Shown here: one piece after another, positions 4,805-63,637 of the stretch
Layout of the letters: the number at the start of each line of letters is the position of its first letter
Position numbering within the stretch: position 1 is the first letter of the stretch
NCBI RefSeq assembly: GCF_900182695.1
Contig: NZ_FXTK01000007.1
Location: forward strand, 81,402 to 145,401
DNA: 64,000 nt
Direction of reading: 5' to 3'
DNA from: Paracoccus laeviglucosivorans
GTDB lineage: Bacteria > Pseudomonadota > Alphaproteobacteria > Rhodobacterales > Rhodobacteraceae
Notes under the pieces: generated by a model
The model's database searches: none
Told to the model about the DNA's origin: nothing
The model's input: the letters and a program-made list of their open reading frames with translations, nothing else
Program-made: the position numbers and the translations under genes

Positions 4805-5401
4805 ATGACCAGAACGCTGATCGTGGTGGATATGCAGGTGGATTTCTGCCCCGGAGGACGGCTTGCCGTTGCCGGAGGGGACGAGATCGTTGCACCGATC
4901 AACGCCATGATGCCGGATTTCGATACGGTCGTGCTGACGCAGGACTGGCATCCGGCGAACCATGCCAGCTTTGCCGACAACCATCCGGGGGCCGAGCCTT
5001 TCTCGTTGACGCAAATGGAATACGGGCCGCAAGTCCTGTGGCCCGCGCATTGCGTCATCGGCACGCAGGGCGCGGAATTCCACCCCGATCTGGACACCCG
5101 CCGCGCCGATGCAATCATCCGCAAGGGGTTCCGCGCCGATATTGACAGCTATTCGGCGTTTTATGAAAACGACTACAAGACGCCGACCGGCCTTGCGGCA
5201 TATCTGCGCGAGCGCCATCTTGAGGACCTGTATTTCGTGGGTCTGGCCCATGATTTCTGCGTTTCATGGTCGGCGGTGGACGCGGCCCGTCTGGGTTTCA
5301 GCGTCACGGTGATCGAAGATGCCACCCGCGCCATCGACCTGAACGGTTCGCGCGAGGCAGCACGCAACAACATGCGCGATGCGGGGGTGCAACTGGTATG
5401 A
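4805..5401 (+). CDS. pncA: Nicotinamidase
   Basis: A 198-residue isochorismatase-fold enzyme that hydrolyses nicotinamide to nicotinate in NAD salvage. The N-terminus [14 protein letters not shown] carries the catalytic Asp. The metal-site run [10 protein letters not shown] and the nucleophile-cysteine segment [15 protein letters not shown] are present. The ATG at 4805 was chosen because ACAGGAGG lies 7 nt upstream; a longer frame to 4754 has no family match. Its stop overlaps the pncB start, so the two salvage steps are translationally coupled. Confidence 0.93.
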
Positions 5402-6705
5402 TGACGGCGACTGTGGATATTGCGACGCGGGTCTATAACCACAAATGGAAGATCGACCCGATCGTGCGGTCACTGATCGACACGGATTTCTACAAGCTGC
5501 TGATGTGCCAGTCGGTGTTTCGCAATCGGCGCGACACGCATGTCACCTTCAGCCTGATCAACCGCTCGTCCAAGATCCGGCTGGCCGATCTGATCGACGA
5601 AAGCGAATTGCGCGAGCAGTTGGACCATGTGCGCGGCCTGTCGCTGACGCGCGGCGAAAGCACATGGCTGCGCGGCAATACGTTCTATGGCAAGCGCCAG
5701 ATGTTCCGTCCCGACTTCATGGAGTTTCTGGAGAACCTGCGCCTGCCCGCCTATCAGCTTGAAAAGCGTGACGGGCAATATGAGCTGACCTTTGAAGGCA
5801 AATGGGCCGAGGTCATGCTTTGGGAAATCCCGGCACTGGCCATCATCATGGAGCTGCGCTCGCGCGCCGTGCTGAAGGACATGGGTCGGTTCGAATTGCA
5901 GGTGCTTTACGCCCGCGCCATGACCCGCCTGTGGGAAAAGATCGAGGCGCTGCGCGAGCTTGGTCCCGATCTGCGCATCGCCGATTTCGGCACGCGGCGG
6001 CGGCACAGCTTTCTGTGGCAGGACTGGTGCGTGCAGGCCATGATCGAGGGGCTGGGCGACAGTTTCACCGGCACCTCGAACTGCCTGATCGCCATGCGCC
6101 GCGACATCGAGGCGATCGGGACCAATGCGCATGAACTGCCGATGGTCTATGCCGCGCTTGCCAATAACGATGCCGAGCTGCGCGAAGCGCCTTACCGCGT
6201 TCTGGCCGACTGGCACGAAGAGCATGACGGCAACCTGCGCATGATGTTGCCCGATACCTATGGAACCAAAGGGTTTCTGGAAAAGGCCCCGGACTGGCTG
6301 GCGGGCTGGACCGGCATCCGCATCGACAGCGGCGATCCCGCCGAGGGCGCCGAGACGGCGATCCGCTGGTGGCAAAGCCGGGGCGAAGACCCGCGCAACA
6401 AGCTCATCATTTTTTCCGACGGGCTGGATGTCGCAAAGATCAAGGAACTGTTCCTGCGCTTCCAGGGCAGGGTCAAGGTCAGCTTCGGCTGGGGCACGCT
6501 TTTGACCAATGACTTCCGCGGGCTGGTTCCGGGCGACGGGCTTGCCCCATTCTCATTGGTCTGCAAGGCGGTCGCTGCCGAAGGGCGCCCGACCGTGAAG
6601 CTGTCCGACAACCCCGAGAAAGCCACCGGCCCCGCCGATCTGATCGAACATTACCGCCAGATCTTCGACGTGGGCCAGCAGGAACGGCTGGAAGTCGTGG
6701 TCTAA
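5398..6705 (+). CDS. pncB: Nicotinate phosphoribosyltransferase
   Basis: About 435 residues. The enzyme converts nicotinate and PRPP to nicotinate mononucleotide, the step after PncA. Family landmarks are [16 protein letters not shown] near the N-terminus, the central [12 protein letters not shown] motif (phosphoribosyl transfer region), GTSNCLIA, and [11 protein letters not shown] plus IIFSDGLDV in the C-terminal barrel. Two adjacent ATGs (5398 and 5401) overlap the pncA stop; either could be used. The next gene, nadE, converges on it, with a hairpin terminator between. Confidence 0.94.
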
Positions 6706-50999: not shown

Positions 51000-51184
51000 C
51001 ATCAGCTCGCCATGACCGGGCGTTCTTGGGGTCTTACACCGCCCCATGCCTTCATTCAGCCGATCCGGACACGACACATTCGGTCACCCTCTGATCGAAA
51101 ATGAAAAAAACCTTTCCCAACCGTCCTGACAATCCCGCCAACACCAGTCTATCAATGGTTGAGCCATTCGTCCGGAGAAGACCC

Positions 51185-52702
51185 TTGACCATCGAAAAGA
51201 CCCTGTTCGCCGCCGCCGATAAGATGCGCGGCGCCATGGATGCGGGCGAATACAAGCATATCGCGCTTGGCCTTCTGTTCCTGCGCTATGTGTCCGAGGC
51301 CTTCGACCGCCGCCAGACCCTGATCGTCGCAGACGGCGGCGATGCCGAAGATCGCGACGAGTATCTGGCCGAAAACACCTTTTTTGTCCCGCCCTCGGCC
51401 CGATGGACCAGCCTTGCCGCCCAGTCCAAGGATGCCCGCATCGGCGTGATGATCGACGACGCCATGCGCCAGATCGAGGCCGAGAACCCCAGCCTGAAAG
51501 GCGCGCTGCCCAAGGTCTTCGGCCGCGAATCCATCGACCGCGCCATGCTGATCGGGCTGATCGACCTGTTCTCGAACCTCAAGCTGGACGGCAGCAAGAA
51601 TGACTTCGACCTGATCGGTCGCATCTATGAATATTGCATCGGCGAATTCGCCAGCAGCGAGGGCAAGCGCGGCGGCGAGTTCTATACCCCGAAATCCGTC
51701 GTCGACACGCTGATCGAGATGATCGAGCCGACCCGTGGCCGCGTCTATGACCCCTGCTGCGGCACGGGCGGGTTCTTTGTCCAATCGGAAAAGTTCATCG
51801 ACGCACATCAGGGCAAAACCGACGACATCGCCATCTATGGTCAGGAACGCAACCACACCACCTTTGGTCTTGCGCGTATGAATCTGGCGATCCGCTCGAT
51901 CTTTGCCGATATCCGCTGGAACTCCGAAGGCACGCTGCTGCGCGATGAATTCCCGGATGAACGATTCGACTATATCCTTGCCAATCCGCCGTTCAACATC
52001 TCGGACTGGTCGGGCAACCTGCTGCGCGAGGATGCGCGCTGGCGCTTCGGCGCGCCGCCGGTGGGGAATGCGAACTTTGCATGGATCCAGCATATCCACG
52101 CGCATCTGTCGGCGACGGGCATCGGCGGCGTGGTGATGGCCAATGGCTCGATGTCGTCGATGTCGGGTGGCGAGGGTGAGATCAGGCAGGCACTGGTGCA
52201 AGGCGACGCTGTGGATTGCATGGTCGCCCTGCCGGGGCAGCTGTTCTATGGCACTCAGATCCCGGCCTGCCTTTGGATTCTGGCGCGCGACAAATCGAAC
52301 GGCATCGCGATGAATGAAACCCTGCGAGACCGCCGCGGTCAGGTGCTGTTCATGGACGCCCGCAAGATGGGTGCGCTGGTCCCCGGTTCACGCAAGCAGA
52401 AAGAGCTGTCCGAGACCGAGATCCGCCAGATCGCCGCCACCTATCACACCTGGCGGGGTGAGGAGCGCGAGGGTGCCTATGCCGATGTGCCGGGCTTCTG
52501 CAAGTCCGCCACGCTGGAGGAAATTGAGGCGCATAACTTCGTTCTGACCCCGGGCCGTTATGTCGGCGCGGGCGCGGCCGAGGAGGATGACGAGCCTTTC
52601 GAGGAGAAGTTCGACCGCCTGATGGGGGTGCTGCGCGATCAGTTCGCCGAGGGGCGACGGCTGGAGGCCGAGATTGAGGCACGGCTGGGGGCACTTAGCT
52701 GA
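51185..52702 (+). CDS. hsdM: Type I restriction-modification system methyltransferase subunit
   Basis: 505 residues from a TTG preceded by GGAGAAG. N-terminal helical domain (KTLFAAADKMRGAMDAGEYKHIALGLLFLRYVSEAF), AdoMet motif VYDPCCGTGGFF and catalytic NPPFNISDWSG. It forms the M2S methylase with HsdS. A longer frame to 51101 exists but lacks family similarity. The stop overlaps the hsdS ATG. Confidence 0.95.
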   Translation: MTIEKTLFAAADKMRGAMDAGEYKHIALGLLFLRYVSEAFDRRQTLIVADGGDAEDRDEYLAENTFFVPPSARWTSLAAQSKDARIGVMIDDAMRQIEAENPSLKGALPKVFGRESIDRAMLIGLIDLFSNLKLDGSKNDFDLIGRIYEYCIGEFASSEGKRGGEFYTPKSVVDTLIEMIEPTRGRVYDPCCGTGGFFVQSEKFIDAHQGKTDDIAIYGQERNHTTFGLARMNLAIRSIFADIRWNSEGTLLRDEFPDERFDYILANPPFNISDWSGNLLREDARWRFGAPPVGNANFAWIQHIHAHLSATGIGGVVMANGSMSSMSGGEGEIRQALVQGDAVDCMVALPGQLFYGTQIPACLWILARDKSNGIAMNETLRDRRGQVLFMDARKMGALVPGSRKQKELSETEIRQIAATYHTWRGEEREGAYADVPGFCKSATLEEIEAHNFVLTPGRYVGAGAAEEDDEPFEEKFDRLMGVLRDQFAEGRRLEAEIEARLGALS

Positions 52703-53958
52703 TGCGCGACGTTTACCTCGAGGAAGTCGCGCAGCTCACGGTCGGCCATGTGGGCTCGATGGTAGATGAATATGTTGATGTCGGCATTCCATTCCTCCGG
52801 TCTCTGAATATCCAACCCCACAGGATCGACTTCCAAGAAACAAAATTCATCACACGTACTTTCCATGAGAAGCTGCGCAAATCGGCGCTTCGGCCGAATG
52901 ACGTCGTCATCGTGCGGACCGGCAAGCCCGGGACATGCGCTGTCATTCCTGAAGACTTGGTTGAAGCCAATTGTTCCGACCTCGTCATCGTTCGTTGCGG
53001 CCCGCACATACGCCCTCGATTTCTTGCATACTGGGTGAATGCGGTCGCGAGCGAACACGTAGCTTCGCACATCGTGGGGGCCGTGCAGCAACACTTCAAC
53101 GTCGGCTCGGCGAAGCGCATGCCCATCCGTCTGCCTAGTTTGCGTGACCAAGACAACGTGCTCGCCATCCTCGGCACCCTCGACGACAAGATCGAGCTGA
53201 ACCGCAAGACGGCGGCGACGCTGGAGGCGATGGCGCGGGCGCTCTATCGGTCGTGGTTTGTGGATTTCGACCCTGTGCGCGCCCGCGCCGAGGGCCGCGC
53301 CCCCGCCCACATGGACGCCGCCACCGCCGCCCGCTTCCCCGACAGCTTCGGCGAGGATGGGCTGCCGGTGGGGTGGAGGATGGGGGCCGTCCTAGACGTA
53401 TTTGACGTCATCATGGGGCAATCGCCGCCCGGTGAGACATACAATGAAAACGCACTAGGGCTTCCGTTCTATCAAGGTCGTGCTGAGTTCGGATACAGAT
53501 TTCCCACTGTTAAGAAGTATTGCTCTGCCCCGACGCGCATTGCTCGCATGGATAGCACTCTACTAAGTGTTCGAGCTCCGGTTGGTGACCTAAATAGGGC
53601 TTGGGAAGAGTGCTGTATTGGTCGCGGTGTAGCGGCACTTTGGGAACGCTCCGCGCGTAACGCTTATGGCTACGAAGCTATGCAGTCTTTATCAACTGCA
53701 CTTGCTTCTTTCGATACGGAAGGGACCGTCTTCGGCTCGATCAACAAGAAGCAACTCGCGAACCTTCCATTGATCGTACCTGATGATGCCGTCGTTGATG
53801 GTTTCGAGAGATTGGTGGCGCCTATGGATCAACAGATCAGGTCGTTGGTTGCTCAAAACCGCACCCTAGCCACCCTTCGCGACACCCTTCTCCCCCGCCT
53901 CATGTCCGGCGAACTCCGCGTCGGCGCGGCGCGCGAGATGGTCGAGGAAGTCGCCTGA
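52702..53958 (+). CDS. hsdS: Type I restriction-modification specificity subunit
   Basis: 418 residues. Two target-recognition domains (about residues 1-150 and 225-380) are each followed by a conserved helical spacer: ILGTLDDKIELNRKTAATLEAMARALYRSWFVDFDPV and LVAQNRTLATLRDTLLPRLMSGEL. The recognition domains use noticeably AT-richer codons than the spacers, a typical mosaic from domain shuffling. The target sequence cannot be predicted. Confidence 0.94.
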   Translation: MRDVYLEEVAQLTVGHVGSMVDEYVDVGIPFLRSLNIQPHRIDFQETKFITRTFHEKLRKSALRPNDVVIVRTGKPGTCAVIPEDLVEANCSDLVIVRCGPHIRPRFLAYWVNAVASEHVASHIVGAVQQHFNVGSAKRMPIRLPSLRDQDNVLAILGTLDDKIELNRKTAATLEAMARALYRSWFVDFDPVRARAEGRAPAHMDAATAARFPDSFGEDGLPVGWRMGAVLDVFDVIMGQSPPGETYNENALGLPFYQGRAEFGYRFPTVKKYCSAPTRIARMDSTLLSVRAPVGDLNRAWEECCIGRGVAALWERSARNAYGYEAMQSLSTALASFDTEGTVFGSINKKQLANLPLIVPDDAVVDGFERLVAPMDQQIRSLVAQNRTLATLRDTLLPRLMSGELRVGAAREMVEEVA

Positions 53959-55097
53959 TGTTCCGCGTGGACCGCACCGCCAACCGCATCTCTCGCCTGA
54001 CGCAGAAACGCTTTGGCGATCTGGCGCTGCGGGAACGGGACCATCTGCAGGAATGGCTAGTCCATCAACCCGACGCATTGGGCGAGGATCTGCTGATCCT
54101 GCAAAAGGAATTCGACGGCTTCGATGAAACGCGCGAGCGGTTGGACCTGCTGGCGCTGGATAAATCCGGCAATCTGGTGGTGATCGAGAACAAGCTGGAC
54201 GATTCGGGCCGCGATGTGACGTGGCAGGCGCTGAAATACGCGGCCTATGTCTCGGGCCTGACGCGCACGCAGATCGTGGATATTCATCAGCAATATCTGG
54301 ACCGCCATTGCGGCGGCAAGAACGCCACGCAGTCGATCAGCGCCTTCCTTGAGGTCGAAGACCTGTCCGAGGTGGCGCTGAACCCCGGCAACGGCCAGCG
54401 CATCCTGTTCGTCGCCGCCAATTTCAGGCGCGAGGTGACGGCAACGGCGCTGTGGTTGATCAGCCGCGGCATCGCGGTGCAATGTTTCCGCGTCACGCCC
54501 TTTGCCATGGGCGACGAGCTGTTGCTGGACCTGCAACAGATCATCCCACCGCCCGAGGCTGCCGATTACATGATCGGTGTTTCGTCGAAAGAGGTCGAGG
54601 AAACCGCGATCCAAGGCACCCAGAAACGCCGCCACGATCTGCGGCAGCAGTTCTGGACCAAGGCGCTGGAACGTCTGCGCGCCGACGGCGTCAAACTGTT
54701 CGCCAATATCAGCCCGACCAAGGACCATTGGCTGAACGCCGGGTCCGGTGTATCCGCCTGTCGGTTCCAGATGATCTTTGGCCAAAGCGAAGCGCGGGTC
54801 GAGCTGTCATTGGCAAGGTCCGAAGGCGCCGAGAACAAATGGCTGTTCGATCAGCTGTTCACCCGCCGCGCCGAGTTGGAGGCCGCATTCGGTCATGCCA
54901 TGGAATGGCGGCGCATGGATGACAAGAAGCAAAGCCGCATTGTCTATGCTAAGGATTTCGACGGCTATGACAAGGACAGCTGGCCAGACATGCTGGACTG
55001 GCTGTCGGAACATATTCGCAAGCTTGAGATCGCCTTCAGCGAGCCGCTGAACAAAATCGGGCGCGCCATCAATTTACAGGACGAAAGCGAAGACTAA
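53958..55097 (+). CDS. DUF4268/PD-(D/E)XK nuclease-like protein in the RM operon
   Basis: 379 residues. The N-terminal part has ERLDLLALDKSGNLVVIENKLDDSGRDVTWQALKYAAY, the Asp...Glu-x-Lys core of a PD-(D/E)XK nuclease (NucS-like). The C-terminal ~150 residues (FWTKALERLRADGVKLFANISPTKDHWLNAG to ELEAAFGHAMEW) match the DUF4268 pattern. It is coupled by one-base overlaps to hsdS before and hsdR after. Such genes occur within type I operons, but the role in restriction is not established. Confidence 0.8.
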   Translation: MFRVDRTANRISRLTQKRFGDLALRERDHLQEWLVHQPDALGEDLLILQKEFDGFDETRERLDLLALDKSGNLVVIENKLDDSGRDVTWQALKYAAYVSGLTRTQIVDIHQQYLDRHCGGKNATQSISAFLEVEDLSEVALNPGNGQRILFVAANFRREVTATALWLISRGIAVQCFRVTPFAMGDELLLDLQQIIPPPEAADYMIGVSSKEVEETAIQGTQKRRHDLRQQFWTKALERLRADGVKLFANISPTKDHWLNAGSGVSACRFQMIFGQSEARVELSLARSEGAENKWLFDQLFTRRAELEAAFGHAMEWRRMDDKKQSRIVYAKDFDGYDKDSWPDMLDWLSEHIRKLEIAFSEPLNKIGRAINLQDESED

Positions 55098-58000
55098 TGG
55101 CGTGGATCAGCGAAGCGCAGCTTGAGGCGCATTTCATGGAAAGCCTTGCGCCGCTGGGCTACCACCTGATGCATGGGGCGGATGTCTCGCCCGAGATGCG
55201 CGACCCCATGCGCGCCAGTTTCCGCGAAACGATCCTTGCGCCGGTGCTGCTGGACAGTCTGCGTCGGCTGAACCCCGATGTGCCGGACCCGGCGTTGCAG
55301 GACGCGGCGCGGCGGGTGACCGACAGCGTATTCGCGCAAGACGTGGTGCAGGAAAACCGGCGGCTGCATGACCTGATGGTGCATGGCGTGCCGGTGACCT
55401 TTTTGCGCGAGGGCGAGGAGCGCCATGCCCGCGTCCGGCTGGTCGATTGGGGCAATCTGTCGAATGACTGGCGCGCGGTGCAGCAATTCGACGTGGCGGG
55501 CAAGACCGCGCGCATTCCCGATGTGGTGCTGTTCCTGAACGGCCTGCCGCTGGTGGTGGTCGAGCTGAAGGGCGTGGCAGGCGCGGATGTCAAAGCCGCC
55601 TGGAACCAGATCGATACCTATCGCAACGATATCCCCGACCTGTTCCGCACCAACCTGCTGACGGTGATCTCTGACGGGTTGCAGGCGCGCTATGGCTCGG
55701 TCTCGGCCGGGTTCGACCGCTATATGAGCTGGCGGACGGTGGATGGCGAAACGCTGGTGCCCAAGGGCTCGACCTTGGAGCTGTCGACGCTGACCGAGGG
55801 GCTGCTGGCGCCCGGCGTGCTGCTCGACATGCTGCGCTGGTTCGTGGTCTTTGAGGATGAAGGCAAGGGTCCGATCAAGAAGATCGCGGGCTATCACCAG
55901 TTCCACGCCGTGCGCAAAGCCTGTGACACGATCCTGACCGCGCGGGCGGGTGACGGCAAAGGCGGGGTGATCTGGCACACCCAAGGCTCGGGCAAAAGCC
56001 TGCTGATGACCTTTCTGTCGGGCCGGATCATGCATCATCCGGCGTTGGAAAACCCGACGCTGCTGGTGCTGACCGACCGCAACGATCTGGACAACCAGCT
56101 GTTCGCGACCTTTGCCCGCTGCAAGGAATTGCTGGGCGAAGAGCCGGTGCAGGCAGACAGCACGGAAACGTTGCGCGGCCTGCTGGACCGCAATGTCGGC
56201 GGCATCATCTTTTCGACCATCCAGAAATTCCGCCCCGAAAGCGGCGAGACTTTCCCGGAACTGACCGCGCGCTCGAATGTGGTGGTGCTGGTCGATGAGG
56301 CGCATCGCACGCAATACGGGTTCGAGGCCAAGCTGAACAAGGACACCGGCGAGATCCGCCATGGGCTTGCTTATCAGTTGCGCCGGGCGCTGCCGAATGC
56401 TGTCTATGTCGCCTTTACCGGCACCCCGGTCGAGCTGGTCGGCGCCGACACCCGCGGCGTCTTTGGCGATTACATTGACGTCTATGACATCGCGCAGGCG
56501 GTGGCCGATGGCGCGACCGTGCCAATCTATTACGAAGCGCGGGTGGCCAAGATCACGCTGGATGAGGATGTCGCCGCCACGCTGGACGACGAATTCGACG
56601 AGGCGACCGAGATGCTGGCCGAAGATCAGGCCAGCGCCACTGCCAAGAAATGGGCCCGGGTCGAGGCGCTGGTCGGGGCCGACCGTCGGCTGGACACGGT
56701 GGTGCAAGACATCCTGACCCATTTCGACGCACGCCTGACTGCCATCGATGGCAAGGTAATGATCGTCTGCATGAGCCGCCGCATCTGCGCCGCAGTCTAT
56801 GACCGCATCATTGCCGCCCGCCCGGATTGGCATGGCGACACCGACGATACCGGCTGCGTCAAGGTGGTGATGACCGGATCGGCCACCGACCCGGCGGCGC
56901 TGCAACCGCATATCCGGTCGAAAACCCGGCAAGAGGCGATCCGCGTCCGCTTCAAGAACCCCGCCGATCCGCTGAAGCTGGTCATCGTGCGCGACATGTG
57001 GCTGACCGGCTTTGATGCGCCCTGCATGCACACGCTTTACGTCGACAAACCGATGAAGGGGCACGGGCTGATGCAGGCCATCGCCCGCGTGAACCGGGTC
57101 TTTGCCGATAAGCCCGCCGGGCTGGTGGTCGATTATATCGGCATCGCCGCCGAGCTGAAGGCTGCGTTGGCGCATTACTCGCAGACCGATCAGGCCCAGA
57201 CCGGCATTGATGAGGCCGAGGCCATCGCGGCCTTCCTTGACGCATTGGATGTGGCGCGGACGCAGTTTCATGGCTTCGACTATGGCGCCGCGCTGCGGGG
57301 CACTCCCGGCGAGCGGCTGGCTGTCCTGCCCGGTGCGATTGAACATATCCTGTCCAAGGATCGCGACAGCGACACCGCGACCGGCACCAAGCGCTTTCAG
57401 GATGCCGTGGCCGCGCTGGTCAAAGCCTATAAGCTTGCTTCGGGCAGCCCGCAGGCGACCGAACATGCCGAAGAGGTCGCGTTCTTTGCTGCCGTGCGCT
57501 CTAGCCTGGCCAAGCTGGATGTGGGCGGGCCACGCAGCGATGGCGGCAGCGACTTTGCCATCCAGCAGCTGATCAACAACGCAGTCGCCTCGACCGAGGT
57601 GGTCGATATCCTTGAGGCTTGCGGTTTCGACCGCCCCGATATCAGCGTGCTGTCCGACGAATTCATGCTGGAATTGCAGAACATGCAGCATCGCAACCTT
57701 GCCGTCGAGGCGCTGAAAAAGCTGCTGAACGGCGAGATCTCGGCCCGCACCCGTACGAACGTGGTGCAAAAAGAGGTGTTCTCGACCCGGCTGGAACAAG
57801 CCATCGCCCGCTATCACAACCGCAGCGTCGATGCCCTGCAGATCCTGCAAGAGCTGATCGCGCTGGCCAAAGACCTGCAAAGCGAGCCCGAGGACGGCCT
57901 GAACACCGCCGAACGCGCTTTCTATGATGCCCTGGCCCAGAACGACAGCGCCGTGCAGATCATGAGCAACGAGGAACTGCGCGTCATCGCCACCGAATTG

Positions 58001-58174
58001 GTCACGACCGTGCGCAACAATGCGGGTGTGGATTGGTGGAAACGCGAAAACGTCCGCGCCAAGATGCGCGTGGCTATCAAGCGGATCCTAGCGCGACACG
58101 GCTATCCGCCGGATCTCGCGTCCGAAGCCGTCAAGCTGGTGCTGCGGCAGGCCGAGGCGCTGGCGATGGGGTGA
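55097..58174 (+). CDS. hsdR: Type I restriction enzyme R subunit
   Basis: 1025 residues. The N-terminal nuclease has DVVLFLNGLPLVVVELKG; the SF2 translocase has Walker A WHTQGSGKSLLMTF (about residue 296), DEAHRTQYG, FTGTPVELVG and the motif VI region AIARVNRVF. C-terminal helices contact HsdM/S. With hsdM and hsdS it forms an intact type I restriction system. Confidence 0.96.
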   Translation: MAWISEAQLEAHFMESLAPLGYHLMHGADVSPEMRDPMRASFRETILAPVLLDSLRRLNPDVPDPALQDAARRVTDSVFAQDVVQENRRLHDLMVHGVPVTFLREGEERHARVRLVDWGNLSNDWRAVQQFDVAGKTARIPDVVLFLNGLPLVVVELKGVAGADVKAAWNQIDTYRNDIPDLFRTNLLTVISDGLQARYGSVSAGFDRYMSWRTVDGETLVPKGSTLELSTLTEGLLAPGVLLDMLRWFVVFEDEGKGPIKKIAGYHQFHAVRKACDTILTARAGDGKGGVIWHTQGSGKSLLMTFLSGRIMHHPALENPTLLVLTDRNDLDNQLFATFARCKELLGEEPVQADSTETLRGLLDRNVGGIIFSTIQKFRPESGETFPELTARSNVVVLVDEAHRTQYGFEAKLNKDTGEIRHGLAYQLRRALPNAVYVAFTGTPVELVGADTRGVFGDYIDVYDIAQAVADGATVPIYYEARVAKITLDEDVAATLDDEFDEATEMLAEDQASATAKKWARVEALVGADRRLDTVVQDILTHFDARLTAIDGKVMIVCMSRRICAAVYDRIIAARPDWHGDTDDTGCVKVVMTGSATDPAALQPHIRSKTRQEAIRVRFKNPADPLKLVIVRDMWLTGFDAPCMHTLYVDKPMKGHGLMQAIARVNRVFADKPAGLVVDYIGIAAELKAALAHYSQTDQAQTGIDEAEAIAAFLDALDVARTQFHGFDYGAALRGTPGERLAVLPGAIEHILSKDRDSDTATGTKRFQDAVAALVKAYKLASGSPQATEHAEEVAFFAAVRSSLAKLDVGGPRSDGGSDFAIQQLINNAVASTEVVDILEACGFDRPDISVLSDEFMLELQNMQHRNLAVEALKKLLNGEISARTRTNVVQKEVFSTRLEQAIARYHNRSVDALQILQELIALAKDLQSEPEDGLNTAERAFYDALAQNDSAVQIMSNEELRVIATELVTTVRNNAGVDWWKRENVRAKMRVAIKRILARHGYPPDLASEAVKLVLRQAEALAMG

Positions 58175-58330: not shown

Positions 58331-59911
58331 TCAGCCAGGCTGATTTCCAGACACTGCCGCCCAATCCAGACCAAACCGCGAGAGATACTTGCGCAATCGG
58401 TCGGCGTCGTTCTGGCTGGCTTTCTCTGCCCGCGACATGGCAAACAGCCGACGGCCAGCGGCCGAAAGATTGGCGCATTCCCGGCACGCACGGATAACGG
58501 CGGCTAGCTGGGCGCGGTCGAATTCATCCAGCCGTGCGGAATCCGGCAAGACTTCAGCCAGCAGGACCTCGTCCAGGTCGGCGGTTGCAGAGTTCCACTG
58601 TTCAATAAGGGTCGCGATCTCGGCCTCTACCATCGGCACGGTGATACGTCCACGCTCGGCCAGCACAGCCATGCGATGGGCCGACGCGTGCAGGTCGCGC
58701 AGGTTGCCGGGCCAAAGCGTGCCCGGATCCTGCGCAAACCTTAGATAGCGCACCAGCGCGTCGGCGTTAAATCCGGTCTTGCGGTCCAACTGACGCTCGC
58801 TGCTGTCGATCATGTCCAGAAGATGCGCCTGAATGTCCTGCCGCCGTTCCCGCAGCGGCGGCAGCCGGACCACCCATTGCGATAGCCTTGCGTGCAGATC
58901 GGGCCGCAACCGCCCGGCGCGGACCAACGCGCCGGGGGCGCTGGCGGCGGTGGCAATCAAGTGAAAGCGGGCGGTCACCTCGGCCTCGGATCCGACGGGG
59001 CAATAGCGACCTGTCTCGATCACCTGCAACAGCGCGGCCTGTTCATCGAGGCCCAGCTCGTCGATATGATCAAGAAACAGAACACCCCCGTCTGCTTCGC
59101 GGAGAAAGCCCGGCCGCTCGCTGCCTGCCACGCCCGTCGCGGCACGGCGCTGGCCGAACAACGCGGGCAAGGCCTGCCCTCCGCGCAGCGTGGCGCAGTT
59201 AACCTGAACCAGCCTGCCCTTGATGCGGCGGCGCACCAACTTCAGCTCATGGATCTGAGCGGCAAGGTGGGATTTTCCGGTCCCAGGATCCCCCAGCAGC
59301 AGGATCGGCGCGTCCGATCCGGTGGCCACCAGATCCAAACGGGCGGCCAGCGCCTGCATCGCGGGGCTGGTCGTTTCGATCCCGCCCAGCAGCATTGCCG
59401 AATGGTCACGCGCAGCCGCTTCAAACCGGCGCTGCAGGGCGTTGTAGCGGGTCAGGTCAAGGTCGATGACATCCAGCGTGCCTTGCGGCGCTGCACCCTC
59501 ACGCGGGGGGCCAGTCTGCAAAAGTCGCGCCGGGATATGGCGGCTTTCGGTCAGCAGGAACCAGCATATCTGCGCCACATGCGTGCCGGTGGTCAGGTGA
59601 ACGTGGTAACGCTCTCGATCCTCGTCGAAGCCGTATTCAGCGGCAAAGTCGTAAAGCTTGCCATAGACTTCCTGAAAATCCCAAGGGTTGGCCATGTCGA
59701 TGCTGACCAGCCGCACCTCGGTATCGGGCGATGTCTTGGCGATGGCCTTGGCCACATTGCAGGCCAGATGGTAATGGCGCTGGTCGTGAATCAGTTCCAG
59801 CCGGTCAACGGGAAAATCGGGATGTTCGCATAGTTGGACCGAGGGCCGCCATTCGCGACGCTTGCCCATATCCAACTGGGTTCCAAGAAAGCCGATGACG
59901 ACATTGCGCAT
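58331..59911 (-). CDS. rtcR: RtcR-type transcriptional activator (CARF, AAA+, HTH)
   Basis: 526 residues. The N-terminal CARF-like sensor starts MRNVVIGFLGTQLD and contains LTTGTHVAQICWFLLTE; in known RtcR it binds RNA-damage products. The AAA+ domain has Walker A GDPGTGKS (207-214) and Arg fingers in RPDLHARL. Two key elements are altered: the GAFTGA loop reads RAATGV (256-261) and Walker B ends DH (281-282) instead of DE. The C-terminal helices form the DNA-binding domain. The start is the second Met of the open frame because family proteins begin there. It is divergent from ro60. Confidence 0.93.
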   Translation of the reverse strand: MRNVVIGFLGTQLDMGKRREWRPSVQLCEHPDFPVDRLELIHDQRHYHLACNVAKAIAKTSPDTEVRLVSIDMANPWDFQEVYGKLYDFAAEYGFDEDRERYHVHLTTGTHVAQICWFLLTESRHIPARLLQTGPPREGAAPQGTLDVIDLDLTRYNALQRRFEAAARDHSAMLLGGIETTSPAMQALAARLDLVATGSDAPILLLGDPGTGKSHLAAQIHELKLVRRRIKGRLVQVNCATLRGGQALPALFGQRRAATGVAGSERPGFLREADGGVLFLDHIDELGLDEQAALLQVIETGRYCPVGSEAEVTARFHLIATAASAPGALVRAGRLRPDLHARLSQWVVRLPPLRERRQDIQAHLLDMIDSSERQLDRKTGFNADALVRYLRFAQDPGTLWPGNLRDLHASAHRMAVLAERGRITVPMVEAEIATLIEQWNSATADLDEVLLAEVLPDSARLDEFDRAQLAAVIRACRECANLSAAGRRLFAMSRAEKASQNDADRLRKYLSRFGLDWAAVSGNQPG

Positions 59912-59945
59912 TGGGATGATCCTTTGAGATAATTCCATATATCAC

Positions 59946-59999
59946 AGGATATAATCTTGCGAAGCGCTTTGTGGTGAATATAGTAATAATCACATTATT
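59946..59999 (+). promoter_or_regulatory. Candidate overlapping sigma54/sigma70 promoter and operator for the ro60-rtcB operon
   Basis: GG (59947-59948), ten bases, then GC (59959-59960) within TTGC is a partial sigma54 -24/-12 match. The same TTGCGA (59957-59962) is followed, 16 bases on, by TATAGT (59979-59984), a good sigma70 pair. Immediately downstream, AATAAT-CAC-ATTATT (59985-59999) is a perfect inverted repeat. Only one may be functional. Confidence 0.45.
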
Positions 60000-60086
60000 T
60001 CAATGCACTAATCGGGAAATGAGAATTTCTTCACACCTCGGTCTGTTCCTGCCAAAAAGGACGCAGAAACAGAAGGGAACACGATC

Positions 60087-61643
60087 ATGGCAAACAAATC
60101 CCTGTTTGCATCGTTGGCAGGGCGGCTTGTGCAGCGCGCAACCGCCACCAACGCGGCAGGGGCCAAGGCCTATGCCTATGGCGCTGAACACAAGCTGGCG
60201 CAGCTTGCAATGACCGGCACCTTTGGCGGCGGTTTCTATCAGGGCGCGCAGGCCGAGGTTTCGGCCTTGCTTGATGCGGCCATGGCGGTTGACCCGGTGT
60301 TTCTGGCCCAGACCGCCGTGCATGTCCGCGAAAAAGGCCACATGAAGGACACGCCGGCGCTGTTGCTGGCGGTGCTGTCGGCCCGCGATCCGGCGCTGTT
60401 TGCGCAGATTTTCGGGCGGGTTGTCACCTCGGGCAAGGTGCTGCGTGGTTTTGTGCAGATCCTGCGGTCGGGGCAGACCGGGCGGAAATCGCTGGGCTCG
60501 CGGCCCAAGGCGATGGTGCAGCGCTGGCTGAACGCGGCCACGGATGCGCAACTGCTGGCGGCATCGGTCGGTAACGACCCGTCGCTGGCCGATGTGATCC
60601 GCATGGTGCATCCAAGGCCGGAAACGGCTGAACGGGCGGCCTTTTATGCGTGGATCATCGGAAGGCCCGCCGATACGGCGGCGCTGCCGCGGGTGGTGCA
60701 GGATCTGCTGGCCTTTCGGGCCGGGGTGTCGGGCGTCGTGCCGGATGTGCCGTTCCAGATGCTGGCCGATTTGGCCCTGACGTCCGATCAATGGGCCGAT
60801 GTGGCGCGCAAGGGGTCGTGGCAGATGCTGCGGCAGGGGCTGAACATGCTTGATCGCAAGGGCGCGTTTGCACAGCCCGGCGTGGTTGATCATGTGGCAG
60901 GGGTTTTGCGCGATCCGGGGCGTATCCGGGCCGCCAAGGCGCTGCCCTATCAACTGCTGGCCACGCTGAACGCGCTGTCGCCTGATGTGGACGCAAAGCT
61001 GCGCGATGCGCTGCATGACGCGATGGAGATATCCGTTGCAAATGTGCCGGTGCTGCGCGGATCTGTCGCGGTCTGCCCCGATGTGTCGGGGTCGATGTCG
61101 TCGCCTGTCACCGGGTATCGGCCCGGTGCAACCTCGGTCGTGCGCTGCCTTGACGTGGCGGGGCTGGTCGCGGCGGCGGTGCTGCGCAGCAACCCCAAGG
61201 CCCGCGTCCTGCCGTTCGAGGTGCGGGTGCGCCAGACCCGGCTGGAGGCGCGCGACACCATCCTGACCAATGCCGCAAAGCTGGCGGCACTGGGCGGGGG
61301 CGGCACCAACTGTTCGGCACCGCTGGCTGCGCTGAATGCGGCAGGGTTGGCGCCCGATCTGGTGATCTTCGTTTCGGACAACCAGTCCTGGGTCGATGAT
61401 CGGCAGGGCGGGCAAGGCACAGCGATGATGGCGGAATGGGCCAAGCTCAAGTCCTGCAACCCTGCGGCGAAACTGGTCTGCATCGACATCCAGCCCTATG
61501 GCACCGCGCAGGCGGCAGAACGGAACGATGTGCTGAACATCGGCGGTTTCTCGGATCAGGTCTTTGACCAGATCGCCGATTTCGCAGCCGGGCGGATGGG
61601 CCCTGACCATTGGGTCGGCGAGATCGCTGCGGTCGAAGTCTGA
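60087..61643 (+). CDS. rsr: Ro60/Rsr (TROVE domain) Y-RNA-binding protein
   Basis: 518 residues. The TROVE HEAT-repeat ring occupies about residues 1-320 (VHVREKGHMKDTPALLLAVLSARDP, LPYQLLATLNAL), then a von Willebrand A domain with the metal site CPDVSGSMSSP (about 328-338), GGGGTNCSAPL and FVSDNQSW. Bacterial Ro (Rsr) binds Y RNAs and hands structured or damaged RNA to nucleases such as PNPase. AGAAGGGA precedes the ATG. It heads the operon with the Y-RNA-like array and rtcB. Confidence 0.94.
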   Translation: MANKSLFASLAGRLVQRATATNAAGAKAYAYGAEHKLAQLAMTGTFGGGFYQGAQAEVSALLDAAMAVDPVFLAQTAVHVREKGHMKDTPALLLAVLSARDPALFAQIFGRVVTSGKVLRGFVQILRSGQTGRKSLGSRPKAMVQRWLNAATDAQLLAASVGNDPSLADVIRMVHPRPETAERAAFYAWIIGRPADTAALPRVVQDLLAFRAGVSGVVPDVPFQMLADLALTSDQWADVARKGSWQMLRQGLNMLDRKGAFAQPGVVDHVAGVLRDPGRIRAAKALPYQLLATLNALSPDVDAKLRDALHDAMEISVANVPVLRGSVAVCPDVSGSMSSPVTGYRPGATSVVRCLDVAGLVAAAVLRSNPKARVLPFEVRVRQTRLEARDTILTNAAKLAALGGGGTNCSAPLAALNAAGLAPDLVIFVSDNQSWVDDRQGGQGTAMMAEWAKLKSCNPAAKLVCIDIQPYGTAQAAERNDVLNIGGFSDQVFDQIADFAAGRMGPDHWVGEIAAVEV

Positions 61644-61648
61644 AACGC

Positions 61649-61671
61649 TCCCCGGCGGTGACGCCGAGGGG
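61649..61671 (+). other. Hairpin between rsr and the Y-RNA array
   Basis: A GC hairpin 6 bases after the rsr stop: CGGCG (61653-61657) pairs with CGCCG (61662-61666) around GTGA, extended by C/G pairs across a one-base bulge. It is followed by AATCAAAA, not T, so it is more likely an mRNA 3'-end stabiliser or processing site than a terminator. Confidence 0.45.
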
Positions 61672-61681
61672 AATCAAAACA

Positions 61682-61801
61682 CCCGGCGAATGCCGGTGAA
61701 ACTACAGCGTGTCGCAGGTTCGAATCCTGCCTGCCAAACCGGGCAGTAGCTCAGCGGTAGAGCAGCTCCGAAAGGACGGTTTCGCCAATTTTGTCGCCGG
61801 G
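61682..61801 (+). ncRNA. Y-RNA-like RNA 1 with permuted tRNA-like head
   Basis: Outer 8-bp helix 61682-61689/61794-61801, internal loop ATGCC (61690-61694) opposite AATTTTG (61787-61793), inner 8-bp helix 61695-61702/61779-61786. The head holds a perfect T-arm (61714-61718/61726-61730, loop TTCGAAT), an acceptor-like stem CTGCC/GGCAG (61731-61735/61742-61746) closed by AAACCG, a D-arm GCTC-AGCGGTA-GAGC (61749-61763), and a 3-bp GAAA mini-hairpin (61767-61776) where an anticodon arm would be. The chain is therefore opened in the variable region. Bacterial YrlA-class Y RNAs are known tRNA mimics. Confidence 0.85.
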
Positions 61802-61821
61802 GCCAGAAAAAGGGGGATGAC

Positions 61822-61940
61822 CCGGCGAATGCCGGCAGGACTACAGGTTAGAGCGCCGGGAAACCGGAGGTCGCGCGTTCAACTCGCGCCGTGCGCAAGC
61901 GTGTAGCTCAGTGAAACGTCCTGCCACACCTTGTCGCCGG
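61822..61940 (+). ncRNA. Y-RNA-like RNA 2 with head permuted in the D-loop
   Basis: Outer 7-bp helix 61822-61828/61934-61940, internal loop ATGCC (61829-61833) opposite ACACCTTG (61926-61933), inner perfect 8-bp helix 61834-61841/61918-61925. The head order differs from RNA 1: D-stem GAGC (61851-61854) preceded by GGTTA, mini-hairpin CCGG-GAAA-CCGG (61856-61867), T-arm GCGCG-TTCAACT-CGCGC (61873-61889), acceptor-like CGTGC-GCAA-GCGTG (61890-61903), TA, then GCTC (61906-61909) pairing back to GAGC. The opening is thus inside the D-loop (AGT/GGTTA). Confidence 0.85.
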
Positions 61941-61949
61941 ACCCGAAAA

Positions 61950-62068
61950 CGGGGCGAATGCCAAAGGGACTACAGTGCAATCGAAGGCGATCCAGAGAGG
62001 CTGCCACCCTCTTCATACCGGCCCGGCTTCGGGGTGGGTCGCACAGTCTCTTTCCTTTTGTCGCCCCG
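61950..62068 (+). ncRNA. Y-RNA-like RNA 3 with diverged three-arm head
   Basis: Outer 8-bp helix 61950-61957/62061-62068, internal loop ATGCC (61958-61962) opposite CCTTTTG (62054-62060), inner 8-bp helix 61963-61970/62046-62053 with one G-U. The head lacks T- and D-loop consensus but can fold into three arms: ATCG-AAGG-CGAT (61980-61991), a 6-bp arm with 7-nt loop (61995-62013), and an arm with a 7-nt loop (62017-62039). It could be a drifted tRNA mimic. Confidence 0.7.
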
Positions 62069-62090
62069 ACCAGACCATTCCGGGGGAATT

Positions 62091-62159
62091 CCGGGCAGAC
62101 GACATCCAACCCTGTGTTGGCTTGCCGATTTCCTTGTCCCCCTGAACGACTTTGCCCGG
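62091..62159 (+). promoter_or_regulatory. Structured linker with a pairing alternative to RNA 4
   Basis: CCGGGCA (62091-62097) is perfectly complementary to TGCCCGG (62153-62159), and CCAAC-CCTGT-GTTGG (62106-62120) forms a hairpin between them. The 3' arm shares bases 62156-62159 with the outer helix of RNA 4, so the two folds exclude each other. This may gate RNA 4 or rtcB translation; purely an inference from pairing. Confidence 0.4.
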
Positions 62160-62201
62160 TGAATGCCGCGCGGCACGACTGGCTGCCGCGCTTGTCGCCG
62201 G
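62156..62201 (+). ncRNA. Minimal Y-RNA-like element 4 in the rtcB leader
   Basis: A 46-nt element with only the Ro-binding-type architecture: outer 7-bp helix 62156-62162/62195-62201 (one U-G), internal loop ATGCC (62163-62167) opposite TTG (62192-62194), perfect 8-bp inner helix GCGCGGCA/TGCCGCGC (62168-62175/62184-62191), and an 8-nt loop instead of a head. Its last bases run into GGAG (62200-62203), the only Shine-Dalgarno-like sequence before rtcB. Confidence 0.7.
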
Positions 62202-62215
62202 AGTTCCATATGTGA

Positions 62216-63637
62216 GTGAATGAGATGATGAACGATGACGCACCTTCCCCCGTATCCGGGGCCGACCTGATCGAATGGGGCCACCGCCCCGGCCCGGCGT
62301 TTCCGGACCTTCTGTCGCGCGCAAATGCCGCGCGGGCCGAAGGCCTTGGCCTGATCCGCATCCGCCAGATGCTGGAGCCGGACCTGCCGCCGCCTGCGCC
62401 CGATCCGCTCGCCCTGCGCCGCCCCGGCGAAGTGCCGCTGCATGTCAGCATCCGCGCCGAAAACGCCGATGAACAGGCCAATGTCGGCAAGGTGCTGGCC
62501 ACCATGGTCGAGGTACTGCGGACCCCCACGGTCGAGGCCGGGGCCGTGATGCCCGATGCCTGCCCGGCGGGACCGTTGGGGACTATCCCGGTGGGCGGCG
62601 TGGTTGCAACGCGCAATGCGATCCATCCCGGCATGCATTCGGCCGATGTCTGTTGTTCGGTCATGATCACCGATCTGGGGCATGTCGATCCAAAGGCGGC
62701 ATTGGATGCGGCGCAGGCGATCACCCATTTCGGGCCGGGCGGGCGCGATCAGGGCAATCGCTTCAGCGTATCGCTGGATCTGATGGATCAGTTCCGCGCC
62801 AACCCGTTCCTGAATGGGAACCGGATGCTGTATTCTGCGCAGGCCCATATGGGCACGCAGGGCGATGGCAACCACTTTCTGTTCATCGGGCGCAGCCGCG
62901 CCACCGGGCGGGTGGCCATGGTAACCCACCACGGTTCGCGCGGGCCGGGCGGGCTGCTTTACAAGCAAGGGATGGAGTCGGCCGAGCGGTTCCGCCGCGA
63001 ACTGTCGCCTGCCACGCTCAAGCAGAATGCTTGGATTCCGGCGGATACCGACCAGGGGCGCGACTACTGGGACGCGTTGCAGATCATCCGCCGCTGGACC
63101 AAGGCCAACCACAACGCGCTGCATCAGGCCGTTGTGGAGAAGCTGCGCGCCGAGCCGGGGGACCGCTATTGGAATGAGCACAACTTTGTCTTCCGTCGCG
63201 GCGATCTGTTCCTGCATGGCAAGGGGGCGACCCCGGCATGGAATGGCTATGCGCCTGATGCGACCGGCCTGACCCTGATTCCTTTGAACATGGCAGAACC
63301 GGTTCTCGTGGTGCGTGGCCGTGATGCCGCCCATACACTTGGCTTCGCGCCGCATGGGGCCGGACGAAATTTCTCGCGCACGGAACATCGCCGCCGCACG
63401 GGGACTGTGACGCCTGCACAAATGTTGGCGGCGGAAACGGCAGGACTGGACATCCGGTTTCATGCCGGAGCAGTGGACGCCTCGGAGCTGCCCTCCAGCT
63501 ATAAACGCGCGGGAGCGGTTGTAGACCAGATCCGCGACTATGGGTTGGCCGAAGTTGTTGACTTTATCGACCCTTATGGCTGCATCATGGCCGGGGACGT
63601 CGCCCCGCACTGGCAAGCAAAGCGAACCCGGCGATAG
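62216..63637 (+). CDS. rtcB: RNA-splicing ligase RtcB
   Basis: 473 residues from GTG 62216 (ATG 62225 or 62228 are alternatives). The ligase joins 2',3'-cyclic-phosphate or 3'-phosphate RNA ends to 5'-OH ends. Metal and GTP-site motifs: HPGMHSADVCCSVMI (Asp/Cys, about 138-152), QGDGNHFLFIG (Asn-His, about 216), THHGSRGPGG (about 238), HGKGATP (about 333) and the guanylylated-His region APHGAGRNFSR (about 378). No rtcA or archease gene is visible. Confidence 0.94.
   Translation: MNEMMNDDAPSPVSGADLIEWGHRPGPAFPDLLSRANAARAEGLGLIRIRQMLEPDLPPPAPDPLALRRPGEVPLHVSIRAENADEQANVGKVLATMVEVLRTPTVEAGAVMPDACPAGPLGTIPVGGVVATRNAIHPGMHSADVCCSVMITDLGHVDPKAALDAAQAITHFGPGGRDQGNRFSVSLDLMDQFRANPFLNGNRMLYSAQAHMGTQGDGNHFLFIGRSRATGRVAMVTHHGSRGPGGLLYKQGMESAERFRRELSPATLKQNAWIPADTDQGRDYWDALQIIRRWTKANHNALHQAVVEKLRAEPGDRYWNEHNFVFRRGDLFLHGKGATPAWNGYAPDATGLTLIPLNMAEPVLVVRGRDAAHTLGFAPHGAGRNFSRTEHRRRTGTVTPAQMLAAETAGLDIRFHAGAVDASELPSSYKRAGAVVDQIRDYGLAEVVDFIDPYGCIMAGDVAPHWQAKRTRR

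Follow-up and report, generated by a model that had tools for sequence, protein, structure and literature searches.

Tandem Y-RNA-like elements with tRNA-like heads on two attachments between rsr and rtcB of Paracoccus laeviglucosivorans

The rsr-rtcB operon and its array

The window, a 64,000-nucleotide stretch of Paracoccus laeviglucosivorans contig NZ_FXTK01000007.1 (positions 81,402 to 145,401), contains genes for the activator RtcR, the Ro60 orthologue Rsr and the RNA ligase RtcB. Five Y-RNA-like elements lie in tandem between rsr and rtcB (61683-62201), three of them well formed and two apparently decayed. The features of the operon are as follows.

58331..59938, minus strand: rtcR, CARF-AAA sigma-54 activator gene, divergent from rsr (Pfam RtcR, E 2e-74)
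60087..61643, plus strand: rsr, Ro60 orthologue, 518 aa (Pfam vWA_Ro60, 49.9 bits, above the cut-off)
61649..61671, plus strand: hairpin directly 3' of the rsr stop codon (fold of 61644-61682, -16.5 kcal/mol)
61683-61800, plus strand: unit 1, 118 nt, YrlA-type tRNA look-alike
61822-61940, plus strand: unit 2, 119 nt, tRNA look-alike with the Ro stem inside the D-loop
61951-62067, plus strand: unit 3, 117 nt, same Ro stem, head in the window not tRNA-like
62081-62143, plus strand: fifth element, a mini-Y RNA, probably decayed, its core mutated (profile score 17.7, below the cut-off of 24)
62156-62201, plus strand: unit 4 of the earlier note, 46 nt, headless stem-loop (profile score 28.8)
62216..63637, plus strand: rtcB, RNA ligase gene (Pfam RtcB, E 8.7e-37; NCBIfam RtcB models match under their cut-offs)

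The gene order (divergent rtcR, then rsr, the array and rtcB) is that of an RtcR-type repair operon, in which rtcR is divergent from the operon that bears rtcB, and the array is encoded beside rsr, as is characteristic of Y RNAs. The RtcR product matches the PADLOC RtcR model (E 1.1e-212) and scores 617 bits against the NCBIfam model, whose cut-off of 650 it does not reach. Rsr resembles the structure of D. radiodurans Rsr (2nvo) over its full length (residues 13-502 matched; E 1.4e-12), and the NCBIfam Rsr model matches its C-terminal part only (51.6 bits; cut-off, 900). Directly upstream of rtcR lies a type I restriction locus (51101-58174) composed of hsdM, hsdS, a PDC-S11/DUF4268 protein gene and hsdR. 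A Pseudomon-groES match on the minus strand was discarded (E 0.37).

In the available text of two papers, the Salmonella rsr-yrlBA-rtcBA operon likewise has a divergent rtcR followed by rsr, Y RNAs and rtcB (PMC7790460, PMC9879122), but it encodes two Y RNAs, compared with the five elements of the window. The window operon differs further in that rtcA (PF01137) had no match in the host genome (82 contigs, 99.72% complete) and that no strict sigma-54 site (TGG[CA]N7-8TTGC) was found in the rtcR-rsr spacer (59939-60086). Two of 77 rtcR-rsr spacers contain this pattern; RtcR is a sigma-54 activator, yet the canonical promoter, in its strict form, is absent from the other 75. Terminator prediction over 59900-62300 returned 2 candidates, with 2.3 expected from shuffles. 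GC hairpins resembling the one at 61649-61671 were seen by eye at the same place in four other rsr loci (L005, L006, L009 and L077).

The earlier note on this DNA had described four Y-RNA-like helical units between rsr and rtcB. All four were found where it placed them, with the anatomy it gave: a 7-bp outer helix ending in GGCGA/TCGCC, an ATGCC internal loop, an 8-bp inner helix (counted with G-U pairs allowed) and a 3' strand ending in TTG. Unit 4 has one G-U pair in the outer helix, GGTGA replacing GGCGA, and both helices form in the predicted fold of every unit. Of the lengths previously assigned (120, 119, 119 and 46 nt), those of units 2 and 4 are right, and units 1 and 3 measure 118 and 117 nt. 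The inner helices indeed differ and still pair, but in each of units 1-3 the last two letters are AC, opposite GT. The note had said that a lack of compensatory changes in homologous loci would refute it; comparison with such loci revealed these changes in the outer and the inner helix alike, and its claim survives this test. Long closing stems with a conserved internal loop, which is taken as the Ro-binding site, are present in units 1-3 by both sequence and covariation; the loop is mutated in the element at 62081 and shortened in the 46-nt unit. The note had missed that some heads resemble tRNA, that unit 2 is attached through the D-loop, that a fifth element exists and that unit 4 is probably decayed.

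The array was compared with 80 rsr loci from named genomes, which together with the window make a census of 81; these 80 were kept out of 274 matches to the window Rsr, so that the census leans toward its relatives. Two further loci stand outside it, L002 (four units in a later scan) and L003 (a weak rsr match). A descriptor of the common stem found 280 units in the 98,291 bases of rsr-to-rtcB gaps of the 81 loci, whereas the opposite strand of these gaps and 484,171 upstream bases gave a single hit each. A profile built from these units, with the window held out, identified 342 units at a cut-off of 24, and none on the reverse strand, within at most 2 kb upstream of each gap or in one shuffle per gap. 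These strand, upstream and shuffle controls exclude chance helices. The core letters are well preserved among the 342 units (ATGCC in 272, the 3' TTG in 306 and TACA at the start of the head in 299), and neighbouring units are separated by a median of 22 nt (262 pairs).

Seventy-nine of the 81 loci hold two to seven units: 3 loci have two, 16 have three, 30 have four, 18 have five, 7 have six and 5 have seven, with one unit in 1 locus and none in 1. The latter is L069, whose gap is truncated at 231 bases. The median is four in the 65 gaps where rtcB was found, and all these counts are lower bounds because the profile set misses some units found by the descriptor or by the covariance model R1 described below, such as the last ones of L004, L009 and L077. 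A four-member array is therefore not unusual, contrary to what the earlier note had supposed, given that 76 of the 81 loci contain at least three units. The order of elements in the window agrees with L077, where one more unit with a tRNA-like head lies toward the start of the array and a tRNA-Asn gene precedes the mini-Y RNA.

Two attachments of a tRNA-like head

The Rfam YrlA model (RF02553) matches unit 1 with 66.4 bits (E 8.2e-14) and unit 2 with 37.9 bits (E 1.4e-5), and yields no match at E≤1 for unit 3 or the 46-nt unit. The earlier note's reading of the elements as Y-RNA-like is supported. Since no unit of the window reaches the gathering score of 69, routine annotation would probably miss the array as a whole.

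Unit 1 is an ordinary YrlA-type Y RNA, with the Ro stem replacing the anticodon arm (type A). It has the common stem and internal loops of YrlA, and its head presents the T arm, the closed acceptor-like arm and the D arm in the order of the Rfam consensus. The fold of unit 1 includes an extra 3-bp GAAA hairpin at the stem junction, and for this reason the anticodon-arm place is not wholly empty. The window departs from YrlA in that unit 1 stays under the cut-off, unit 2 follows another permutation and the head of unit 3 is not tRNA-like. To place the opening of the tRNA, each head was doubled and aligned locally with the 40 distinct host tRNAs. Head 1 aligns best in this circular form with tRNA-Phe (59/65 aligned bases identical; circular score 62.5 versus 42 linear), with its junction in the anticodon loop, and none of 1,000 dinucleotide shuffles reached its score. 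In an alignment of 20 chosen A-type units, 99.3% of cells are paired and double changes occur at 13 of 28 pairs.

Unit 2 is another circular permutation of tRNA, outside the layout of the Rfam YrlA model (type D). Its head aligns with host tRNA-Asp (56/65 aligned bases identical; circular score 59 versus 44.5 linear; 0/1,000 dinucleotide shuffles), and the stem is inserted at D-loop position 17, immediately 5' of a pair of G's in the places of tRNA G18-G19. A 4-bp hairpin with a GAAA loop stands at the place of the anticodon arm, and a GCAA loop caps the acceptor-like stem. Permuted tRNA genes and tmRNA also carry the tRNA fold in circularly shifted order, as do these Y RNA heads; the difference is that here the opening holds a Ro-type stem. 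The acceptor-like ends in the window are closed by a loop, so that, judging from the sequence, no amino acid could be attached.

Compensatory changes in relatives of unit 2 support this arrangement. In an alignment of 16 of the 29 D-labelled units, 96.2% of cells are paired, 26 of 33 pairs have changed on both sides (shuffle mean 9.2), and the score is 0.427, compared with at most 0.113 for slid versions. The both-side changes affect 4/7 pairs of the outer helix, 8/8 of the inner helix, 4/4 of the hairpin at the anticodon place, 5/5 of the T helix and 5/5 of the acceptor-like helix, in the last of which 83.8% of cells pair. The D helix is nearly invariant, with one-sided G-U changes only; covariation is therefore neutral toward it, neither proving nor refuting it. 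For the window copy, energy alone slightly prefers another fold (-51.5 kcal/mol, versus -49.5 for the permuted cloverleaf), and the helix probabilities are 0.33 for the D helix and 0.11-0.19 for the acceptor-like helix.

It could be argued that all units are ordinary YrlA-type RNAs and that unit 2 looks permuted because the D-arm sequences of tRNAs are short and repetitive. The YrlA model does report unit 2, the outer stem of which is the same as that of unit 1, and the D helix lacks proof by covariation. However, unit 2 can be aligned to YrlA only with 21 nt inserted and with the loop and the 3' strand of the D arm left out. Furthermore, a covariance model (R1) built from the 16 aligned D-type units scores unit 2, which was among its training sequences, at 134.8 bits, compared with 44.2 for unit 1 (and 36.7 for unit 3). 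Across the census, the same circular procedure places the junction in the anticodon arm for 97 of 105 A-labelled heads and in the D-loop for 32 of 42 heads labelled D or L; the anticodon arm was also the outcome for four heads labelled D and one labelled L, which indicates that some class labels are wrong. Taken against these observations, the reading of unit 2 as an ordinary YrlA is very improbable.

Unit 3 was also considered as a tRNA mimic, and in the window this was rejected (928 of 1,000 shuffles score as high); its head does not follow the YrlA order. Most of the aligned relatives of unit 3 retain a T-arm-like hairpin, and the class-IV alignment to which it belongs (14 units, unit 3 included) is 94.9% paired, with double changes at 11 of 21 pairs.

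The remaining two elements were interpreted by aligning them with relatives. The core of the element at 62081-62143 is mutated to ATTCC and GACA. Its best match among 343 units of other loci is the mini-Y RNA of L077 (score 60.5; median 25.5), those of L007 and L009 come third and fifth, and for each of the three comparisons 0/500 shuffles scored as high; judging by sequence, it is probably a decayed mini-Y RNA. The 46-nt unit has its best four matches, out of the 343, in the final units of L077, L009, L004 and L006, all with full tRNA-like heads. The likeness is confined to the first ~30 nt, which suggests a deletion, and the unit is probably the beheaded remnant of a full YrlA-type unit.

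Head classes and tRNA genes in other rsr loci

Heads of at least 60 nt were surveyed in the 81 loci, with 20 simple shuffles per head as the control. In this survey, 174 of 237 heads beat all their shuffles and 63 were not significant; together with the head of unit 3, the latter indicate that tRNA mimicry is not the whole story. Junctions fall at the anticodon arm in 115 heads and at the D-loop or the 3' strand of the D arm in 53, of which 35 are labelled D or L. D-loop-tethered heads occur in 30 of the 81 loci by a strict count, and both attachments are found within one locus in 23 by the strict count and in 36 by a loose one that takes in the 18 of 53 D-loop calls on heads labelled otherwise. 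A search with R1 over 82 sources gave 311 matches at E≤0.01, a total that includes the 16 units used to train it; the 300 listed matches all lie on the rsr strand between rsr and rtcB, as seen by eye, those in loci where rtcB was not found being counted as downstream of rsr.

A third form is present in the relatives, in which invariant TGGCGGA and AGACGC flank the stem (14 aligned units; by eye) and a further hairpin stands at the place of the variable arm (by eye). Among 12 significant heads of this form, the best host tRNA is Leu for 9, Ser for 2 and Val for 1, and 11 open in the D-loop. One tRNA-Leu-like copy (L156) comes from outside Alphaproteobacteria, in another class of the phylum. The alignments of these classes (A1, which holds 16 of the 29 D-labelled units, and A2, A3 and A5) consist of chosen units.

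Other elements in the gaps are not of these types. The mini-30 units, such as that of L016 (7688-7761), are strongly conserved Y RNAs of 72-76 nt with a head hairpin of the GCCGAAAGGC type; 23 were counted in the 81 loci, 22 were aligned including one from L154 (A4, read by eye), and the head is unlike tRNA by eye. In L004, L005 and L006, the first ~140 nt past rsr contain a T-arm-bearing element that precedes the first Y unit; a GC-rich stem closes it, and it lacks the CGAATGCC core (by eye).

Complete tRNA genes are interleaved with the units in many relatives. ARAGORN called 56 of them within the gaps (98,291 bases), every one on the strand of the operon, and 39 of the 81 loci have at least one (21 for Asn, 12 each for Gln and Lys, 9 for Pro and two doubtful), compared with 18 in 764,908 bases outside the gaps, ten of these from one cluster; none was called in the window. 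Leaving out the doubtful pair, an Asp call in L008 that overlaps a Y unit and an undetermined one in L049, 49 of 54 are flanked by Y units on both sides. Each of the 6 genomes searched has, besides the tRNA-Asn of the operon, a second tRNA-Asn that is 81-82% identical to it; the two share the anticodon loop but not the anticodon stem (CCTGA/TCAGG in the operon copy versus GTTGA/TCAAT). For tRNA-Lys, the pattern is alike in 3 of 6 genomes, those from which a second copy was retrieved. The tRNA genes located just before a mini unit, Asn(GTT) in L077 (2127-2202) and Gln(TTG) in L007 (3922-3997) and L009 (5541-5616), have the acceptor stem and most of the body in common and differ in their anticodons.

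The position of the units between two genes, on one strand and with short spacers, and the complete tRNA genes called in the same gaps also accord with an action in cis, whereby the array would lower or time rtcB expression or mark the processing of the rsr-rtcB mRNA, the tRNA likeness serving tRNA-processing cuts. Such an action is nevertheless improbable as the explanation of the array. The core of the Ro stem (ATGCC, TTG, TACA) remains constant under very different heads, and each unit possesses its own closing stem. Specific head classes recur across many loci, moreover, which folding in cis alone would presumably not need.

The operon is sporadic: rsr was matched in 3 of 148 genomes, including the window's own and one weak match. 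It was also found on 58 of 72,556 plasmid records and in 23 of 50,697 phages. Other classes of the phylum (L151, L155 and L156) and plasmids (L188 and L189) have arrays as well, and one viral contig, L182, probably carries an array. On this contig (2141-6884), rsr (5001-6617) is ringed by eight R1 matches, some of them weak, and the viral rsr loci L181 and L184 contain many tRNA genes. Phage tRNAs are described, in the available text of one source, as evading tRNA-cutting defence (PMC11555353). Phylum-wide, the YrlA model matches 140 of 398 genomes at E≤0.001, with only 3 above the cut-off; many of the listed matches follow one another at regular intervals, as tandem tRNA genes might, and only those of L150-L152 and L154-L157, where rsr was confirmed, were kept as evidence.

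The restriction-locus neighbourhood and the sporadic distribution are consistent with a defence-island setting. The sporadic distribution also prompts the suspicion that the units are functionless relics of tRNA gene duplication within a mobile defence island, in line with the presence of rsr on plasmids and in phages and with the decayed appearance of two of the five elements in the window. Conversely, compensatory changes in three classes of units reveal selection on structure among the relatives, and this explanation is very improbable.

A predicted set of Rsr adaptors

Starting from the anatomy, the covariation, the tRNA likeness and the two recurring points of attachment observed here, it is likely that the five tandem Y-RNA-like elements work as a set of adaptors for Rsr, with a stem predicted to bind Rsr and heads 1 and 2 acting as tRNA look-alikes joined to it at the anticodon arm and at the D-loop, respectively. 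This would be the simplest extension of known parts, namely, the Rsr-binding stem, the YrlA head that holds PNPase and the operon switched on by cut tRNAs, as far as these are described in the available text of two papers (PMC8394870, PMC7790460). By analogy with the Salmonella operon, which according to part of the second paper is activated through RtcR by tRNA fragments (PMC7790460), cutting of tRNAs would cause RtcR to switch on rsr, the RNAs and rtcB together. The transcript of the array would then be processed into separate RNAs, each of which may dock on the Rsr ring via the common stem and hold out its own head. Type A would present the tRNA elbow and a capped acceptor-like arm and would lack the anticodon arm. 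Type D, suspended by the elbow side, would present an anticodon-arm-like hairpin without an anticodon, the T arm and a capped acceptor-like arm. An array could in this manner produce several kinds of Rsr particles, differing in the tRNA face that is shown, which would recruit or keep off different tRNA-binding partners while RtcB mends tRNAs. For YrlA, PNPase is a known partner, held by this RNA to Rsr, and TruB and DusA modify YrlA, as reported in accessible portions of one paper (PMC8394870).

Alternatively, the heads might be decoys that sequester enzymes which attack tRNA, anticodon nucleases among them, and stay uncut for want of an anticodon loop. Head 1 has a stem, and head 2 a GAAA-looped hairpin, at the place of the anticodon arm, and a type I restriction locus adjoins the operon. 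In Salmonella, YrlA stayed uncut when tRNAs were cut, and the authors, in the text available, name competitive inhibition as a possibility (PMC7790460). Against decoys stands the expectation that a nuclease reading the anticodon loop would not bind heads that lack one, and some heads are not tRNA-like; on balance, we regard decoys as unlikely.

Beyond the window, the adaptor reading can be extended, tentatively and with somewhat more doubt than confidence, to the RNA-repair operons of Proteobacteria in general. These might constitute a Ro adaptor tool-kit of tRNA look-alikes in at least two permutations, one opened at the anticodon arm and one at the D-loop, the latter including a tRNA-Leu type with a variable arm. 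With spare, real tRNA genes (Asn, Lys, Gln, Pro) interleaved in many relatives, a single switch might deliver, in a cell whose tRNAs are being cut, the ligase, substitute tRNAs and Ro particles that between them display all faces of a tRNA. In the titles, abstract openings and passages surveyed, the literature on YrlA, YrlB and the operon mentions neither a D-loop-tethered or tRNA-Leu-like Y RNA nor tRNA genes inside Y RNA arrays.

The occurrence of two attachments of one tRNA fold within one operon raises the question of which face of tRNA an Rsr particle needs. With the D-loop and tRNA-Leu-like forms and the tRNA genes among the units, the connection of Ro particles with tRNA damage would be closer than a pair of Y RNAs next to rtcB makes it.
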